Source: Candidatus Methylomirabilis sp. (GTDB lineage Bacteria; Methylomirabilota; Methylomirabilia; Methylomirabilales; Methylomirabilaceae). Taken from it: a DNA stretch of 46,766 bases. The stretch is taken from assembly GCF_028716865.1 (NCBI RefSeq), contig NZ_JAQUOY010000022.1, positions 1-46,766 on the forward strand, given 5' to 3'. Of the stretch, positions 17,116-25,638 are shown one piece after another; position 1 is the first letter of the stretch, and every line of letters starts with the position of its first letter. The notes below the pieces were generated by a model. It was not told the origin of the DNA. It did no database searches and saw nothing but the letters and a program-made list of their open reading frames with translations. Made by a program: the position numbers and the translations under genes.

Positions 17116-19227
17116 TCAGGAGGACCTCTGTTCCGCTTTGGCCTGTCCCTCCGACTCCAACACCTCTTTCCGACTCAACCGGAGCTTGCCGTTCTTGTCG
17201 ATGTCGATCACCTTCACCATGACCTCTTCCCCTTCCGACAAGACATCCTCGACCCGCTTCACCCGGTGTTCGGCAATTTGAGAGATATGCAGAAGGCCAT
17301 CGGTGCCTGGGAGGATCTGGACAAAAGCGCCAAAGTCCATGATCTTGACGACCTTCCCTCGATAGACCTTGCCAACCTCAGGAACCTCGACGATCTTGCT
17401 GATGATCGACAACGCCTTTTGCGCTGCGGCCTCGTCAACCGAGGCGATCTCGATCCGTCCATCGTCTGAAACATCGATCTTCGCCCCAGAGTCTGCCACA
17501 ATCCCGCGGATCACCTTGCCGCCTGGGCCGATGACATCACGGATCTTATCCACCGGGATCATAATCGTGATGATGCGGGGAGCATACGCCGACATATTCG
17601 GCCTTGGCGTCGCAATAGCGCGGTCCATCTGATCCAGGATATGGAGGCGGGCGCGTCGGGCCTGATCCAGTGCCTTCGGCATGAGGCTAGGTGCAATGCC
17701 ATGGGTCTTGATGTCCAATTGCAGCGCGGTGATCCCTTCCCGCGTGCCGGCCACCTTAAAGTCCATGTCGCCGAGGTGATCTTCAAGCCCGATGATATCG
17801 GTGAGAATCGCTGCCTGCGCATTTTCCATGACGAGTCCCATGGCGACCCCGGCCACCGCTGACCGAATCGGAACCCCGGCATCCATCAAGCTGAGGCTTG
17901 CGCCACAGACCGTAGCCATGGATGACGACCCGTTCGACTCGAGGATATCCGAGACGATCCGAAGGGTATACGAAAACTCCTCTTTCGGCGGTAGCGCCGC
18001 GAGAAGAGCCCGCTCGGCAAGCGCCCCATGTCCGATCTCGCGCCGACCGGGACCGCGCATAAACTTGACCTCGCCGACGCTGAACGGTGGAAAATTATAA
18101 TGGAGCATAAACCGTTTGGTGCCTTCCCCTTCAAGATTATCCAGGCGCTGTTCATCTTCCGAGGTGCCGAGCGTGGTGGTCACGAGGGCCTGGGTCTGAC
18201 CCCTGGTGAAGAGAGCCGATCCGTGAGTCCTTGGCAGGACTCCAACCTCGGCGGTGATCGGCCGAACATCCTCGAGTGACCTTCCGTCCGACCGCTTCCC
18301 CTCTTCCAGGATCATTCGGCGCAACTCTTCGTGCTCGATCTGCTCAAATAGCCCCCTGACGGCGATCTTCCGATCGTCCGGCTCAGCGCTGAACTGGCCC
18401 ATGACTTCATCAAAGAGCGCCTGCCGACGGCTGCGCTGCTCCTCCTTCTCGGCGATCCCGGTCAGGGTCCGAAGCCCCTGGCGGGCGAGAAGGCTCACGC
18501 GCTCGCACAACTCCGGATCCGGAGATGGAGCCTGGAAGGGCGTCTTTTCAACCCGAAGCTCTTTCGCCAGATCCAGTACCATGTTAATCATCGGCTGGAT
18601 CCCCTTATGCCCAAACTCGATCGCCTCCACCATCACTACTTCAGGGATCTCATTGGCTCCGGCCTCAAGCATGACCACATCGCTTCTGGTCCCCGCAACA
18701 ACGATATCGATGTCAGATTCTTCCATCTGGGCATAGGTTGGATTGAGGACCAACTTGCCGCCAACCCGGCCCACCCTGGCAGCCCCAATCGGTCCGAGGA
18801 ACGGAATAGGCGCGATGGCAAGAGCCGCGGAGGCGCCCAGCACCGCCAAGACGTCAGGGTCGTTTTCCTGGTCAGCCGACAGGACCGTGGCGATAATCTG
18901 GACATCATTTCGATAGCCATCCGGAAAGAGGGGCCGGAGCGGACGATCGATGAGGCGGGAGGTCAGCGTCTCCTTCTCATGGGGCCGGCCCTCTCGCTTG
19001 AAGAAGCCGCCAGGGATCTTACCTGCCGCATACGCCCGCTCCTGGTAATCAACCGTGAGCGGAAAGAAATCGACTCCCTGTCGCATCTGTTTCGAAGCCA
19101 CCGCCGTGACAAGAACGACCGTGTCGCCGTACCGGACTAACACTGCGCCATCGGCTTGCCTGGCCACACGCCCGGCCTCGATACTCAATGGTTTCCCTTC
19201 GATGATTTGCTCGACACGACAACTCAT
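17116..19227 (-). CDS. pnp: Polyribonucleotide nucleotidyltransferase (PNPase)
   Basis: 3'-to-5' phosphorolytic exoribonuclease of RNA decay. Its 703 residues have the normal order: RNase PH domain 1, a helical linker, RNase PH domain 2 ([49 protein letters not shown]), a KH domain with [12 protein letters not shown] (about 565-577), and an S1 domain (about 625-695). The ATG overlaps the rpsO stop (ATGA), matching the well-known rpsO-pnp pairing and suggesting coupled translation. Confidence 0.97.
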
Positions 19228-19493
19228 TTACGAATTCCCAACCTTTCGATGATCTGCTTGTACCGGTTCACATCCTTGCTCCTAAGATAATCCAAGAGCT
19301 TTCGGCGCCGCGCAACGAGGCGGAGCAGTCCTCGCCGGGAGTGAAAGTCTTTCTTATGGCTATTCAGGTGCTCGGTCAAATACCCTATTCGCCCGGTCAG
19401 GAGAGCGATCTGCACATCCGGAGAGCCGGAGTCGCTATCATGAAGACGATACTGCCCAATAATCTCTTGCTTATTTGCGGATGCCTTGACCAC
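19224..19493 (-). CDS. rpsO: 30S ribosomal protein S15
   Basis: An 89-residue 16S rRNA-binding protein of standard length. The family core [19 protein letters not shown] and the end [19 protein letters not shown] are both present. The start is a GTG at 19493 with AGGAGG about 10 nt upstream. It lies between ribF and pnp, the usual order. Confidence 0.96.
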
Positions 19494-19557: not shown

Positions 19558-20520
19558 TCAGGGGAGTAAAGTCCATTCTTCCGGAGAAAACCTGGGGCAC
19601 GCAGCAAATACCGCGTCCGCCTGCCGCTTGTCGCTGTCGATCTGTTGTCGGAGCAGTGACGGGTTCTCGAAGCGTCGCTCGCCACGCAGACGTTCGAGAA
19701 AGAAGAGCGTAAGGATCTCTCCATATAACTCCTCCTCGGTCTCCAGCAGGTGGACTTCCACTCGGCGCGCCTCACCACCAAAGGTCGGGGCCCTCCCGAC
19801 ATTGACCAGCGCCTTGCGCAATCCCTGTTTCAACCACGTTTGGCCGGCATACACGCCATCCGGAATGAGCAGATCAGCCGTAGCGGGAAGGTTGGCTGTC
19901 GGGTACCCCAGCCCCTTGCCCCGTGCGGCGCCACGTTCGACGTGTCCACGAATCGCGTACGGACGCCCTAGATAGCGGGCAGCTTGCCGAAGATCCCCTC
20001 TTGCCAGTAAGCCGCGGATGAGCGTGGAACTCACCACCTGGCCGTCCTCGGTCATCGCAGGAACCACATCGAGTACGAACTGATGCTCCCGCCCAAGCCC
20101 CATGAGCACCTCCGGGGAGCCGGCCCTGGCGTTGCCGAAGGCGAAGTCGTATCCAATACAGACAAACCGAGCCCGAAGCCGATCGACCAGGTAGCTCTTC
20201 ACGAAATCGCGCGCCGAGGTGGCAGCAAGACGAGGGGTGAAGGTGACGGCGATCATCAGGTCGACGCCAAGAGCGGCAATGATGTCCCGCTTGATCGAGA
20301 GCGGAGTGATGAGGGACGGCGCGTTTGAAGGGTTCACCACCTCTAACGGGTGCCGCGCGAAGGTGAAGACAACCGCTGTTCCCCCTTCCTGACGAGCCCA
20401 CCGCACCACTCGACCAAGAATCTCGCGGTGTCCGAGATGGACCCCGTCAAATGTCCCAACCGCCACCGCAGGGGCCGGATAGTCGTCTTCCAGATCTTCA
20501 ATCTGCTCGACAACAATCAT
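19558..20520 (-). CDS. ribF: Bifunctional riboflavin kinase/FMN adenylyltransferase
   Basis: Makes FMN and FAD from riboflavin. The N-terminal adenylyltransferase (about 15-185) has GTFDGVHLGHREIL and the SSTLIRGLL loop. The C-terminal riboflavin kinase (about 186-305) has GYPTANLP and ends with the LRGERRFENPSLLRQQIDSD pattern. The length of 320 residues is typical. Its ATG overlaps the truB stop by 4 nt, so the two are probably translationally coupled. Confidence 0.96.
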   Translation of the reverse strand: MIVVEQIEDLEDDYPAPAVAVGTFDGVHLGHREILGRVVRWARQEGGTAVVFTFARHPLEVVNPSNAPSLITPLSIKRDIIAALGVDLMIAVTFTPRLAATSARDFVKSYLVDRLRARFVCIGYDFAFGNARAGSPEVLMGLGREHQFVLDVVPAMTEDGQVVSSTLIRGLLARGDLRQAARYLGRPYAIRGHVERGAARGKGLGYPTANLPATADLLIPDGVYAGQTWLKQGLRKALVNVGRAPTFGGEARRVEVHLLETEEELYGEILTLFFLERLRGERRFENPSLLRQQIDSDKRQADAVFAACPRFSPEEWTLLP

Positions 20521-21458
20521 TGCCCGGCAAGGACCCGTACCGGCTTTAGAACAATCCGGCGCGGGTCGATGGCAGCGAACTCCCGGCCGGCAACTGTCGC
20601 CTCAGCCAGCGAAAGGAGTTGGCGACGATACCCCAGAACTCGAACTAGATCACCCTTCTCCACCTCCAGGGGAAAGCTGAGCAGTGCGCCGGCCGACATC
20701 CCGCTTCCCTGGACAACCCCTCGAGAGGACTCAGGGTGAACCCTGACAACCGGAAGATGCCCCAGGGCCTCGCTAATGGGGATCAGTGCCTCCAGGATGC
20801 GACCCTCCGCAACGATCTGCTCGAGCTGCTGTAGCGTGAGCGCGTTCTCAACCAGAAAACGACCCGACCGGACGCGAGTCAACGCATACAGGTGTGCGCC
20901 ACACCCGAGGACACGGCCGATGTCATCGCACAGGCTGCGGGCATACGTCCCCTTGGAACAACTGACCCGGAACCGGACGAAAGGCAGATCAATCTCCAGA
21001 AGCGTGAGGTCATGGATCCGCACTGCAATCGGCTGCCGTTCGACTGTTTCGCCACGCCGAGCCAGACGATAGAGGCGCTCCCCCTGATGCTTCTTGGCGG
21101 AAAAGAGCGGCGGCACCTGCTGGATCTCGCCGACAAACTGCTTCAGGACGTCCGGTAGCTTGGCAGGATCTACGGTGATATTGTCCGTCTGGGACAGCAC
21201 CTTCCCATCAGCATCCAAGGTATCGGTAGTGATGCCCAGCCGCATCGTAATCAGGTACTCCTTGTCGGCCTGAGTGAGAAATTGTGCGATTCGAGTCGCG
21301 CGCCCAATACAGAGCGGCAAGACTCCGGTGGCCCTCGGATCGAGCGTACCGGTGTGGCCAACGCGGCGCATCTTGAGCAGACGCCGCACCACGTCCACCA
21401 CATCATGGGAGGTCATCCCCCCAGGCTTATTGATATTCAAGACCCCGCTGAGTTCCAT
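20517..21458 (-). CDS. truB: tRNA pseudouridine(55) synthase
   Basis: Makes pseudouridine 55 in the tRNA T loop. The ATG at 21458 gives 313 residues and the usual short lead-in (SGVLNINKPGGMTSHDVV). The catalytic Asp40 is in HTGTLDPRATGVLPL, and SCSKGTYARSLCDDIG follows in the second motif. The C-terminus has a PUA-like domain (GSGMSAGALLSFPLEVEKGDLVRV). GGAGG lies very close to the start, and an in-frame TTG at 21470 is an alternative. A dispersed inverted repeat fills the space to the PHP gene. Confidence 0.95.
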   Translation of the reverse strand: MELSGVLNINKPGGMTSHDVVDVVRRLLKMRRVGHTGTLDPRATGVLPLCIGRATRIAQFLTQADKEYLITMRLGITTDTLDADGKVLSQTDNITVDPAKLPDVLKQFVGEIQQVPPLFSAKKHQGERLYRLARRGETVERQPIAVRIHDLTLLEIDLPFVRFRVSCSKGTYARSLCDDIGRVLGCGAHLYALTRVRSGRFLVENALTLQQLEQIVAEGRILEALIPISEALGHLPVVRVHPESSRGVVQGSGMSAGALLSFPLEVEKGDLVRVLGYRRQLLSLAEATVAGREFAAIDPRRIVLKPVRVLAGQ

Positions 21459-21507
21459 TGCCTCCGCCAAAGACTAATGAAGTGTTTCAGTAATGGCTCG
21501 ACAGTTC

Positions 21508-21583
21508 CGTTCGCCCTGAGCGTGTCGAAGGGTGAATCTTGTTACGGCCTTCCGTTCATGCTTCGACTGGCTCAGCACGAACG
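21508..21583. repeat. Imperfect inverted repeat (dispersed-repeat type) at the PHP gene 3' end
   Basis: Two opposed arms of about 30 nt surround an 18-nt centre. The left arm contains CCGTTCGCCCTGAGCGTGTC and the right arm reads, in reverse, CCGTTCGTGCTGAGCCAGTC. The element contains the stop codon of the PHP gene, whose last residues (about NDRSC) are repeat-encoded. Similar TTCGAC-N2-GCTCAG repeats are scattered in many bacterial genomes. I see a hairpin-forming potential but no clear T tract. Confidence 0.75.
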
Positions 21584-22480
21584 GTCATTGTGAGTCACGA
21601 CACTAGATGGGCTGATTAGCGCCCGGTCCAACTCCTGTTTTCTTGCTCGCAGCCGTTCGACGGTCTCCCAGGGCACCTCTACCCCTCCCAGCTCGGCATC
21701 CGCAACGACTCCGCCACCATGAAAATCGCTTCCACCAGTGGGCATGAGTTGATGTCGATCGGCAACGGCGAGCAGGGATGCTGTCATCTCTGGGGTATAC
21801 CCTTTGTAGTAGGCCTCGATCCCTTCTAAGCCCGCCTCCATCATCATCGGCAGCAGTCGCTCCAGGTCCAGATGGTAATCGCTTGCCCCCGCGATGATCG
21901 GGTGCGCCAGTGAGGGTACACCTTGAGCCTCCCTGATCAGGCTAATCGCCTCCTGTGGGAGCAGGGTTCGACCTTCAACATAACCAGGACCCCCCCGTCT
22001 CAGAAAACGCGAGAATGCCTCGTCGACCGACGCAACGGCGCCGCGCTCTACCAGGGCCTTTGCGATATGTGGCCGCCCGACTGATCCCCCATTCGCAATA
22101 GCTATCACGCGGTCCCACTCGATCTGATACCCGAGCGCGCCTAGCCGCTCAACCATGGCGTGGGCCTGAGTCATTCTATCCGCTTGCACTCGGCCAAGGG
22201 CCTCTCGTAGGGAAGGATCGTCCGCATTGAGCAGATAGCCCAGAACATGGATCTCGTTGCCATCCAGGTTGGTACTCACCTCGATCCCCGGAATGACCTC
22301 GATCGGCAGGCCTGAGGCAGCCTCTCGCGCCTCGCCGATCCCACCTACGCTGTCGTGGTCGGTCACAGCTATCACGCGGATCCCAATGAGGGCGGCCGCC
22401 TCCACCAACTCGGCCGGTCGAAGCGCGCCATCGGAAGCTTTCGTGTGAAGGTGCAGATCGACACGACTCGCCATCGTCAT
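21572..22480 (-). CDS. PHP-domain phosphoesterase (RNase AM/YciV-like)
   Basis: A cytoplasmic 302-residue metal-dependent phosphoesterase. The four PHP motifs are visible: HLHTKASDG near residue 10, VTDHDS near 40, a SLAHP histidine motif near 195, and GGSDFHGG near 257. The nearest family I recognise is TrpH/YciV, whose members hydrolyse 3',5'-nucleoside bisphosphates and short RNAs. The start ATG overlaps the rbfA stop (TAATG), and a second ATG 6 nt later is possible. It lies in the slot between rbfA and truB where nrnA is often found. The C-terminal residues are encoded by an inverted repeat, so the natural end may have been replaced. Confidence 0.85.
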   Translation of the reverse strand: MTMASRVDLHLHTKASDGALRPAELVEAAALIGIRVIAVTDHDSVGGIGEAREAASGLPIEVIPGIEVSTNLDGNEIHVLGYLLNADDPSLREALGRVQADRMTQAHAMVERLGALGYQIEWDRVIAIANGGSVGRPHIAKALVERGAVASVDEAFSRFLRRGGPGYVEGRTLLPQEAISLIREAQGVPSLAHPIIAGASDYHLDLERLLPMMMEAGLEGIEAYYKGYTPEMTASLLAVADRHQLMPTGGSDFHGGGVVADAELGGVEVPWETVERLRARKQELDRALISPSSVVTHNDRSC

Positions 22481-22839
22481 TACTCCTTCGTCCCGGTAGC
22501 CTCGATCTGCCGGAACAGCTCAGCCATGTGTAGCTCCTGCTCAAGCGAATCATCAAGCAAAAAGAGAAGTTCCGGGACGTAACGCAGGGTAACCCTCCGC
22601 CCTAACTCCCCACGGAGAAAACCGGCCGCCTTCTTCAGGCCGACCAACGTCTCCTGACGCTGTTTCATGTCGCCGCCGGCCGACGCAATATAGACGCTCG
22701 CGTGCCGTAAATCCTCACTCACTTTGACATGGGTGACTGTGACAAATCCGATTCTCGGGTCCTTGACCGATCGTAAGATCAGACGACTGATCTCTTCCTG
22801 TATCAGGGTACCTACACGATCGGCGCGTCTGCCTTGCAT
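22480..22839 (-). CDS. rbfA: Ribosome-binding factor A
   Basis: 30S maturation factor of 119 residues. The core GTLIQEEISRLILRSVKDPRIG, split here by eye into the usual KH-like elements, and LRYVPELLFLLDDSLE are family-typical. Of several in-frame ATG codons, 22839 is preferred because GGAGAGG lies 6 nt before it and the protein then starts MQGRRADRVG as is normal. It sits between ylxP and the PHP gene. Confidence 0.94.
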   Translation of the reverse strand: MQGRRADRVGTLIQEEISRLILRSVKDPRIGFVTVTHVKVSEDLRHASVYIASAGGDMKQRQETLVGLKKAAGFLRGELGRRVTLRYVPELLFLLDDSLEQELHMAELFRQIEATGTKE

Positions 22840-22873
22840 GACCATCCTCTCCGCGACCACCAGACCAAGAACG

Positions 22874-23161
22874 TCAATGGGCCATCAAATCGATCTCGTA
22901 ATCGAGCATCAGCGCGTCGGGGTGAGTCTCGATGAGATTTACCACTTTGGTCAGAGTCTCGTCTACCAGGCGGGAATTGTTGCTGACGCAGACAATCCCC
23001 AGCGTGGCGCGCTGCCATTCATCGAGGCGATCTACCTCAGCAACAGAGACATTGAAACGGCCTCGGATCCGATCTTTGAGGCCCTTGATAACCCGCCGCT
23101 TACCTTTGAGGGAGTTGTTGCCGGGGAGATGCAACTCGACGCGGCAGGTTCCGACGGTCAT
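22874..23161 (-). CDS. ylxP: DUF503 family protein YlxP
   Basis: A small conserved protein of about 95 residues with no established biochemical role, almost always found between infB and rbfA. The N-terminus TVGTCRVELHLPGNNSLKGK and the GIVCVSNNSRLVDE segment match the family. The ATG at 23161 gives the standard N-terminus but lacks a ribosome site; an in-frame TTG at 23182 would add seven residues. Confidence 0.88.
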   Translation of the reverse strand: MTVGTCRVELHLPGNNSLKGKRRVIKGLKDRIRGRFNVSVAEVDRLDEWQRATLGIVCVSNNSRLVDETLTKVVNLIETHPDALMLDYEIDLMAH

Positions 23162-23229
23162 AGCCAAAATAGTTTCGAGCAACGAGTCCCGGGTTTCGCA
23201 TTAGGAATAATTCGCAACCCGACACGTTG

Positions 23230-25626
23230 TTAGAGTTTCTGTGCTACCGATTCAAGTTCGAAGACTTCCAGGATATCGCCGACCTTGACGTCGTTGAAGT
23301 TCATCAGACCGACGCCGCACTCAAACCCGCCTTGCACCTCTCTGACATCCTCTTTGAAGCGGCGAAGCGATCCCACTCGCCCCTTGTGAACAACCTTGCC
23401 ATCCCGAACAATGCGGATCTGACTGTCTCGATAGATCTTTCCCTCTACAACGAATGAACCGGCAATCGCTCCCACCTTGGGCACAGCAAAGACCTGACGA
23501 ACCTCCACGCGACCAATTGACCGCTCAATATACGTGGGCTCCAGCAGCCCCTCCATCGCCTGTCGGATCTCATTGATGGCGTCGTAGATCACGGTGTAGA
23601 GCCGAATCTCAACGCCTTCCAGTTCGGCCAGCTTCTGAGTCTTTGGCTCAGGACGTACGTTGAATCCGACAATGACAGCATTAGAGGCCGAGGCCAGCAT
23701 TACGTCAGTTTCGGTGATGGCGCCGACCGACGCATGAATCACCTTCAATCTGACCGCTTCGGTGCTAATCCGCTCCAGCGATTCGCGGAACGGTCCGACG
23801 GAGCCCTGGACGTCCCCCTTGATAATCATTCGAAGTTCTTTGACCTCACCATCCCGGATGCGACGGTGCAAGTCCTCCAAGGTCACGCGGTGTTTCGAAC
23901 CGATCATCTCCTCGCGATGTTTCTGCTGCCGACTGATAGCGATCTGCCGTCCCTTCCGCTCGTCGGATACCACAACGAATGTATCTCCGGCCATGGGGAC
24001 ACCTGAAAGACCCAGCACCTCTACCGGGGTCGCGGGCCCGGCCATCTGGACCCTTTTCCCCGTCTCATTGTTCATGGCCCGTACCCGACCCGAATGTAAT
24101 CCGGCCACGATCACGTCCCCCACCTTCAGGGTCCCCTGCTGAATCAACACTGTCGCGACTGGTCCACGACCTCGATCCAGTTCAGCCTCGACGATGACGC
24201 CCTTCGCTGCCCTGTGCGGGTTCGCCTTCAGTTCCTGAACCTCGGCCAGCAGCAGCAGCATCTCGAGAAGGTGATCTATGCCCACCTTCTTCTTGGCCGA
24301 AACCTCCACATAGACCGTCTGACCTCCCCACTCTTCCGGGACCAGACCATGCTCCGCCAACTGTTGCCTGGCACGATTCGGATCGGCGCCGGGCTTATCG
24401 ATCTTGTTAATCGCAACCAGAATCGGGACGCCCGCGTCCTTGGCGTGGCTGATCGCCTCCAGCGTCTGGGGCATCACCCCGTCATCGGCCGCCACCACCA
24501 AGACTACGATATCGGTCGCCTGTGCTCCACGCGCCCGCATGGCGGTAAACGCCTCGTGGCCTGGCGTGTCCAGAAACGTAATCTTGCTACCCGACAGATC
24601 GACTTGATAGGCACCAATGTGCTGAGTGATTCCTCCCGCCTCCGAGGCAATGACATTGGTCTGCCGAATCGCATCCAGCAGAGATGTTTTACCGTGATCG
24701 ACATGACCCATGATCGTGACCACTGGAGGCCTGGGTAGGAGCAGCGACAGGTCCTCAAGCTCCTTCGTCTCGGTCGCAGTTTCTTCCAGGGACGTCACTT
24801 CCACTGAGAACCCTAGCTGGTCGGCCGCACCTTTTACCACCTCCACATCGAGGGGCTGATTAATAGTGGTCATGATCCCCATCTTGATCAACTGCTTGAT
24901 GATCTCGCTGGGGCTCATCGAGATCTTCTCCGCCAGCTCCTTCACGGTAATCGTCTCCGCAATCCGGACTATCGGGCGAGACGGAGGCGAGGGCTCACGC
25001 TCGACCTGCTCTACCTGGACCTGAGGTTCCAGCGTCGGCGGGATCACAGCCACCCTCTGTCCGGTGGGTGAGACAGACGAAGGCGGCATGAGGATCTGGG
25101 ATGGCTCCCCTTTCAAACCTGCTGGCGCTACCGTGGCCTCGCGAGGAGGCTGAAGCGGCACAGAGGGCGGCTGATCGAGAACCGCTGTCCCCTTAGGCGG
25201 TTGTAGGGTAGGGGTAGATTTGGACTTGCCAGGTCCCTGCGACTCAACCGCGCCCAATCTTTTAACGGAACTCGTCCCTTCGGTTATTGGCCCACCCCCG
25301 GATGGTGCCTTTGCCTCGGCAAGCCTGGAGCGGGCGGGCTTGCCAGCCAAAACCTTGGTTGTTGTTGTCGGTGCATTTCCTGTCCTGGGGCGTCGGCTCT
25401 CCACGGGCTTAGCGTGGACCGTCGGAGCCGAAGGACCGGTCTCTATCGATTTGGGCTTGGGACGGCTTTTCTTCTGAGGCGGTGTGGCTGTCAGGAGTGC
25501 CCTCACATGGTCCTCATCCACGTTGCTGCTGTGGCTCTTCAGTTGTAAGCCCGACCGCTCAAGTCGGTCAATGAGCTCCTTGCTTGACATGCCGAGCAGT
25601 TTCGCCAGATCGTAAACCCTAATCAT
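23230..25626 (-). CDS. infB: Translation initiation factor IF-2
   Basis: GTPase that brings initiator tRNA to the 30S subunit and promotes subunit joining. Its 798 residues comprise an N-terminal IF2_N segment ([20 protein letters not shown]), a long Pro/Lys-rich linker (about 55-225), a second IF2_N (about 227-280), the GTPase domain with [22 protein letters not shown] and NKIDKP, and then domains II to IV. The ATG at 25626 follows GGAG by 5 nt; a GTG 6 nt upstream was rejected. It starts 12 nt after the ylxR-ylxQ stop. Confidence 0.97.
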
Positions 25627-25638
25627 TCCCACTCCGGA

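Follow-up and report, generated by a model that had tools for sequence, protein, structure and literature searches.

The window analysed here, 46,766 nucleotides long, is contig C22 of a genome of the methane-oxidising Candidatus Methylomirabilis (G000; 2.54 Mb, 53 contigs, completeness estimate 99.98%), which together with G021–G034 makes up the genus set (n = 15). It carries an operon-like gene order (nusA, infB, DUF503, rbfA, PHP, truB, ribF, rpsO and pnp) in which the slot between rbfA and truB is occupied by a PHP phosphoesterase gene. The genes and the sites discussed below are as follows.

23230–25632, minus strand: infB, an open reading frame named from its sequence; order kept in the genus and the phylum
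22874–23182, minus strand: DUF503 (ylxP-like) gene (PF04456, 2.6e-33)
22480–22860, minus strand: rbfA, the upstream neighbour of the PHP gene (TIGR00082, 9.4e-33)
22478–22482, minus strand: TAATG, in which the rbfA stop codon overlaps the PHP start codon; AAGGAG lies just upstream, inside rbfA
21572–22480, minus strand: PHP phosphoesterase gene of the slot, RNase AM/Cv1693-like; an open reading frame of 302 amino acids with profile, sequence and fold matches
22166–22168, minus strand: codon CAG for Gln105, in place of Arg110 of RNase AM (residue alignment)
21863–21892, minus strand: extra loop, about seven residues longer, after metal ligand His193; within the phylum, in the slot clade only
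21797–21805, minus strand: Lys226-Gly-Tyr228, with the lysine and the tyrosine invariant throughout the slot clade
20517–21470, minus strand: truB, the downstream neighbour of the PHP gene (TIGR00431, 7.3e-76)
19558–20520, minus strand: ribF (TIGR00083, 3.2e-66)
19224–19493, minus strand: rpsO, an open reading frame named from its sequence; order kept in the genus
17116–19227, minus strand: pnp, the fourth gene downstream of PHP, an open reading frame named from its sequence; order conserved in the genus

A first-pass annotation had placed a PHP gene in the rbfA–truB slot and beside pnp. The former placement is correct: the open reading frame spans exactly 21572–22480 on the minus strand, and a PHP gene lies between rbfA and truB, co-oriented with both, in 15/15 genus genomes, a conservation that rules out an assembly accident. 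The latter needs amending; the PHP gene and pnp belong to the same cluster, yet truB, ribF and rpsO come before pnp. The TAATG overlap indicates that rbfA and the PHP gene are translationally coupled, and the RbfA-to-PHP spacing is identical in 14 of the 15 genomes.

The slot protein belongs to the PHP superfamily, its match to PF02811 (2e-11, 44.9 bits) lying above the curated cut-off of 26.4 and the metal ligands being present in all 15 slot genomes. PHP was the sole domain found by profile search, with neither DHH nor DHHA1 detected. Among curated NCBIfam models, the best match is the 3′,5′-nucleoside bisphosphate phosphatase (NF041577, Cv1693; 1.1e-53, 182.2 bits), followed by RNase RNM/RNase AM (NF047791; 6.3e-52, 176.5 bits). 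Neither score reaches its cut-off (400 and 375 bits, respectively), and the 400-bit cut-off of NF041577 is reached in no genome of the phylum. The closest solved structures by sequence (1e-34 to 1e-37) are BAD_1165 (3e0f), RNase AM (7ug9 and 9etk) and Cv1693 (2yb1), and a Foldseek search with an AlphaFold2 model of the slot protein (pLDDT 89.3, pTM 0.87, 28 aligned homologues) gave 3e0f, Vibrio RNase AM 9etk and 2yb1 as top matches (TM 0.80–0.83). Profile, NCBIfam and structure matches agree on the likeness to TrpH/YciV (RNase AM) proposed in the first-pass annotation, at scores below the equivalog cut-offs. Across the genus, the slot gene is 73–85% identical.

RNase AM binds three Mn ions through His13, Asp20, His45, Glu72, His83, His198, Asp255 and His257; its 5′-phosphate pocket consists of Arg107, Arg110 and Arg141, and Phe161 stacks on the base (PMC9410882). 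The slot protein retains the trinuclear site with all eight ligands (H10, D17, H42, E67, H78, H193, D252 and H254), as well as the stacking phenylalanine (F156). Two of the three pocket arginines are conserved (R102 and R136, for Arg107 and Arg141), and the third, Arg110, is replaced by Gln105. Glutamine occupies this position in 15/15 slot genomes, against arginine in 60/60 other phylum homologues sampled and in 3e0f, 7ug9, 9etk and 2yb1; the one further non-arginine case is a Bacillota protein with alanine. The Arg201 salt-bridge position of RNase AM is Ile196 in the slot protein, and its arginine is also missing in most phylum homologues. The loop after His193 comprises 24 residues in all slot proteins versus 16–19 in the 60 others from the phylum, whose residue at position 228 is histidine (glutamine in one) and at position 226 never lysine. 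The slot clade is a distinct PHP subfamily, catalytically intact as judged from its sequence and with a changed 5′-end pocket, and its substrate has probably shifted.

The slot protein compares with its closest known relatives as follows. With RNase AM (Rnm/YciV/TrpH of E. coli and Vibrio; 7ug9, 9etk), it shares the PHP barrel and insertion domain (TM ~0.80 to 9etk), all trinuclear ligands and the equivalents of Arg107, Arg141 and Phe161, but it has glutamine for Arg110 and isoleucine for Arg201, falls below the equivalog cut-off and is only ~35% identical to enterobacterial Rnm; moreover, the RNase AM gene lies beside trp/yciO, not between rbfA and truB. Cv1693 (2yb1, with AMP and phosphate bound) agrees with it in fold, metal site, two of three pocket arginines and the stacking phenylalanine; however, the slot protein scores 182 of 400 bits on the corresponding model, has no Arg110 equivalent and differs in the sequence of the post-His193 loop. 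The top structural match, BAD_1165 from Bifidobacterium adolescentis (3e0f, 3o0f), has in common with it the GRPH motif and the long loop and carries a basic residue, arginine, at the position of slot-clade Lys226, but is actinobacterial, 31–32% identical and keeps the Arg110 equivalent.

The PHP gene of the slot stands where relatives carry nrnA. A DHH profile found matches in 0/15 genus genomes, compared with 78/80 other phylum genomes and 13/14 control genomes, and a query with the NrnA protein gave no genus match, even with the limit relaxed to E ≤ 1 (a search without a positive control of its own, which the DHH profile has). The slot was assembled in all 15 genus genomes and contains a PHP gene in each, whereas all 74 non-genus genomes readable on both sides have an NrnA-like DHH gene there; among the remaining non-genus slots, one has rbfA followed by NrnA where its contig ends, and no readout was obtained for five. 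On the TruB tree, one NrnA-to-PHP switch, at the base of the genus, suffices. The first-pass annotation had read the locus as a non-orthologous replacement, to be judged by a survey of the slot across the phylum and abandoned if a standard nrnA turned up elsewhere in the genome. The survey returned PHP in every genus slot and NrnA in every readable slot outside, and a standard nrnA was looked for and is absent in 15/15 genus genomes; replacement in place is well supported.

RecJ is missing in the whole genus (G000, G021–G034) because no DHH domain occurs anywhere in it, unlike in several other lineages of the phylum.

Disposal of short RNA is essential in some bacteria, and the folds known to perform it so far are those of Orn and NrnC (DEDD) and of NrnA and NrnB (DHH). 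Orn and CysQ, which the first-pass annotation had suggested looking for, were both searched. Neither the genus (domain search, 15 genomes) nor most of the phylum has Orn/RNase_T. The search for a DEDDy protein of NrnC size came up empty in G000, where PF01612 matches only a PolI-sized frame and, weakly and below threshold, a 1003-residue frame, and cover by NrnC or RNase D in this genome was rejected on these grounds. Nor does G000 have a CysQ equivalog over the cut-off: its two Inositol_P proteins score 92 and 99 bits, far below the required 228.8, one being HisN (over its own cut-off) and the other SuhB-like, which led us to reject CysQ cover as well. In the phylum, CysQ exceeds the cut-off in 2/95 genomes.

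Two observations on related nucleases were made in passing. RNase_T, here in the sense of the DnaQ-type proofreading exonuclease, was undetected in 84/95 phylum genomes; in G000, a frame of DnaE size contains a PHP domain (locus G000:C6:23285-23482), and this domain might carry proofreading. An extra DEDDy (PF01612) protein, absent from the other genus members, occurs in two of them, in frames of 403 and 261 residues (loci G030:C22:10703-11200 and G022:C16:48547-49032).

A c-di-AMP synthase (DAC domain) is encoded in 13/15 genus genomes and a 7TM-HD (PgpH-type) protein in 12/15, G000 having both. Loss of NrnA through loss of c-di-AMP signalling was therefore rejected, and pApA is probably still made. 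In S. aureus, pApA is cleared by the DHH enzyme Pde2; when Pde2 is lost, pApA accumulates and feedback inhibition follows (PMC5207132). The need once filled by NrnA as a degrader of pApA and nanoRNA therefore probably persists in the genus.

G000 encodes a second full-length PHP protein (L014, on contig C5), located in an fdhD–PHP–yjbQ cluster that is conserved in most genus members. This paralogue shares the PHP subfamily, ~39% identity and the GRPH motif with the slot protein, but differs in its intact Arg107/110/141 pocket (the Phe161 equivalent being kept as well), its short loop, its locus and its branch of the tree, where its nearest relative is a PHP protein of family f5 (G019). On the 3′,5′-nucleoside bisphosphate phosphatase model, it scores 201 bits versus 182 for the slot protein. 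Full-length PHP proteins of the paralogue's kind are also common in NrnA-bearing relatives within the phylum, so the presence of PHP alone is not enough to make NrnA dispensable.

A phylogeny of 86 homologues groups the slot proteins into a single clade with full support, separate from the paralogues. Forcing all genus PHP proteins into one clade is rejected (p-AU 0.019, a moderate value, with long branches present), which argues against the slot gene having been copied recently from the second PHP gene of the genome. In a search of the whole collection, the slot clade (at least 73% identity) was not found outside Methylomirabilis/Methylomirabilota records; the other matches, from Verrucomicrobia and one actinobacterium, are 36–41% identical, and their flanking sequence, as far as compared, matches neither RbfA nor TruB. 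A plasmid search gave a best match of 39.6% (Paenibacillus) and no donor; the slot gene may have arrived by transfer or by relocation of an old paralogue.

Comparison shows that the ancestor of Candidatus Methylomirabilis lost nrnA from the rbfA–truB slot and that an unrelated three-metal PHP gene came to sit exactly at its position, translationally coupled to rbfA. Building on the fold, the metal ligands, the position, the single replacement event and the absence of DHH and Orn-type enzymes, we propose that the product of this gene assumed the task of NrnA, at least in part, an account that we rate slightly better than an even bet. The substrates would be 5′-phosphorylated di- and short oligoribonucleotides, that is, nanoRNA and the pApA arising from c-di-AMP breakdown. 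The trinuclear metal site would hydrolyse the phosphodiester that adjoins the first nucleotide, with the 5′ end held by Arg102, Arg136 and the stacking Phe156, and Gln105 (for arginine), Lys226, Tyr228 and the longer loop would tune specificity.

RNase AM degrades 5′-phosphorylated RNAs of ≤5 nt, and longer ones, in the 5′-to-3′ direction (PMC9410882), and this direction has also been reported for NrnA (PMC9757072). NrnA/Pde2 (DHH-DHHA1) has a fold and motif set unrelated to those of the slot protein and was not found in the genus; relatives carry it at this very position of the operon, and we propose that the two share short 5′-phosphorylated RNA and pApA as substrates. As both are metal-dependent phosphodiesterases, from families reported to act 5′-to-3′ on short RNA, takeover of part of NrnA's role by the PHP protein appears the most economical reading, although co-location and the absence of NrnA do not prove it. 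Against it stand the paralogue with its intact pocket, which could itself be the RNase AM-like enzyme, the loss of the Arg110 equivalent, the lack of an Arg201 equivalent (as in most phylum homologues) and scores far below the curated cut-offs. A further counterpoint comes from a pGpG degradation screen, where activity among the genes tested was limited to Orn, NrnA, NrnB and NrnC (PMC6256023).

A bolder version of the takeover would make the slot protein the first of a new PHP-fold class of nanoRNase/dinucleotidase, on which Methylomirabilis came to rely chiefly for pApA and RNA 2–5-mers once all DHH enzymes were gone, with the 5′-phosphate pocket remodelled to that end (Arg110 to Gln, Lys226, Tyr228, longer loop); this we put forward tentatively, with the odds somewhat against it.

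The main competing explanation is that the replacement was positional but not functional. The slot protein would then have some other phosphorylated substrate, a small molecule or an RNA end, and the duties of NrnA, including any nanoRNase or pAp function, would fall to the fdhD–PHP–yjbQ paralogue or to RNase J, PNPase or other nucleases. The paralogue's three pocket arginines and Phe161, set against the glutamine of the slot protein, agree with this, as do the extra clade-specific features of the slot clade, the occurrence of PHP proteins elsewhere in NrnA-bearing relatives and the tree result, by which the slot protein is no simple recent copy of the paralogue. However, NrnA would have to have been lost, by coincidence, exactly where an enzyme of the same chemistry entered its slot, and if a paralogue-type PHP protein sufficed, the retention of NrnA in all PHP-bearing relatives would be left unexplained. 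We consider a purely positional replacement unlikely, if worth keeping in mind.

Less probable still, and in our estimate improbable, is that the slot protein is a pAp (3′,5′-nucleoside bisphosphate) phosphatase like Cv1693, which would replace a pAp-clearing and not a nanoRNase role. pAp is produced in all bacteria by holo-ACP synthase, the best curated-model match of the slot protein is to this phosphatase, and the Inositol_P proteins of G000, HisN and SuhB-like, leave it without a CysQ equivalog over the cut-off. By contrast, that model gives the paralogue a higher score, and the 5′-phosphate pocket of the slot protein is one arginine short. Moreover, when tested directly against CysQ, NrnA-like enzymes did not hydrolyse pAp robustly (PMC9757072), so the slot may have supplied something other than pAp clearance. 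For the same reason, and because the slot pocket is altered where that of the paralogue is intact, the first-pass suggestion that the PHP protein covers both activities of NrnA stays conjectural, whereas its reading of an in-place replacement is well supported.

That there was no real replacement, nrnA having been missed through divergence or the incompleteness of metagenome-assembled genomes and the slot PHP being a hitchhiking gene, is scarcely credible and already largely refuted: most genomes are indeed drafts and slot NrnAs can diverge (two in the phylum score 91–104 bits against a 350-bit cut-off), but the DHH profile that detects 78/80 relatives fails in all 15 genus genomes, several of them 99–100% complete and one a single 2.75-Mb contig, and their agreement, with the slot assembled and a PHP gene inside it every time, led us to reject incompleteness or misassembly as the cause.

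A literature search that lay mostly outside subscription journals found no publication that puts a PHP protein at the position of NrnA or has it replace NrnA; what seems new here, on sequence grounds, is the slot in which a known PHP fold stands, together with a pocket particular to the clade. A lineage that has neither DHH nor Orn-type enzymes and whose slot is filled by a PHP gene amounts to a natural experiment, and it names a candidate for the missing nanoRNase. It is also a clean example of a fold being displaced by another while the genomic position stays fixed. The clade-specific pocket change provides a prediction at the level of single residues, and reading loci in this way could be useful for other lineages in which cyclic dinucleotides are used and no nanoRNase is known.

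Two minor features concern the slot gene itself. Its product is 302 residues long in the window, compared with 292 in most genus members, and a 30-nt imperfect inverted repeat (REP-like; window 21507–21584) lies between the PHP gene and truB, with one arm overlapping the 3′ end of the PHP gene.
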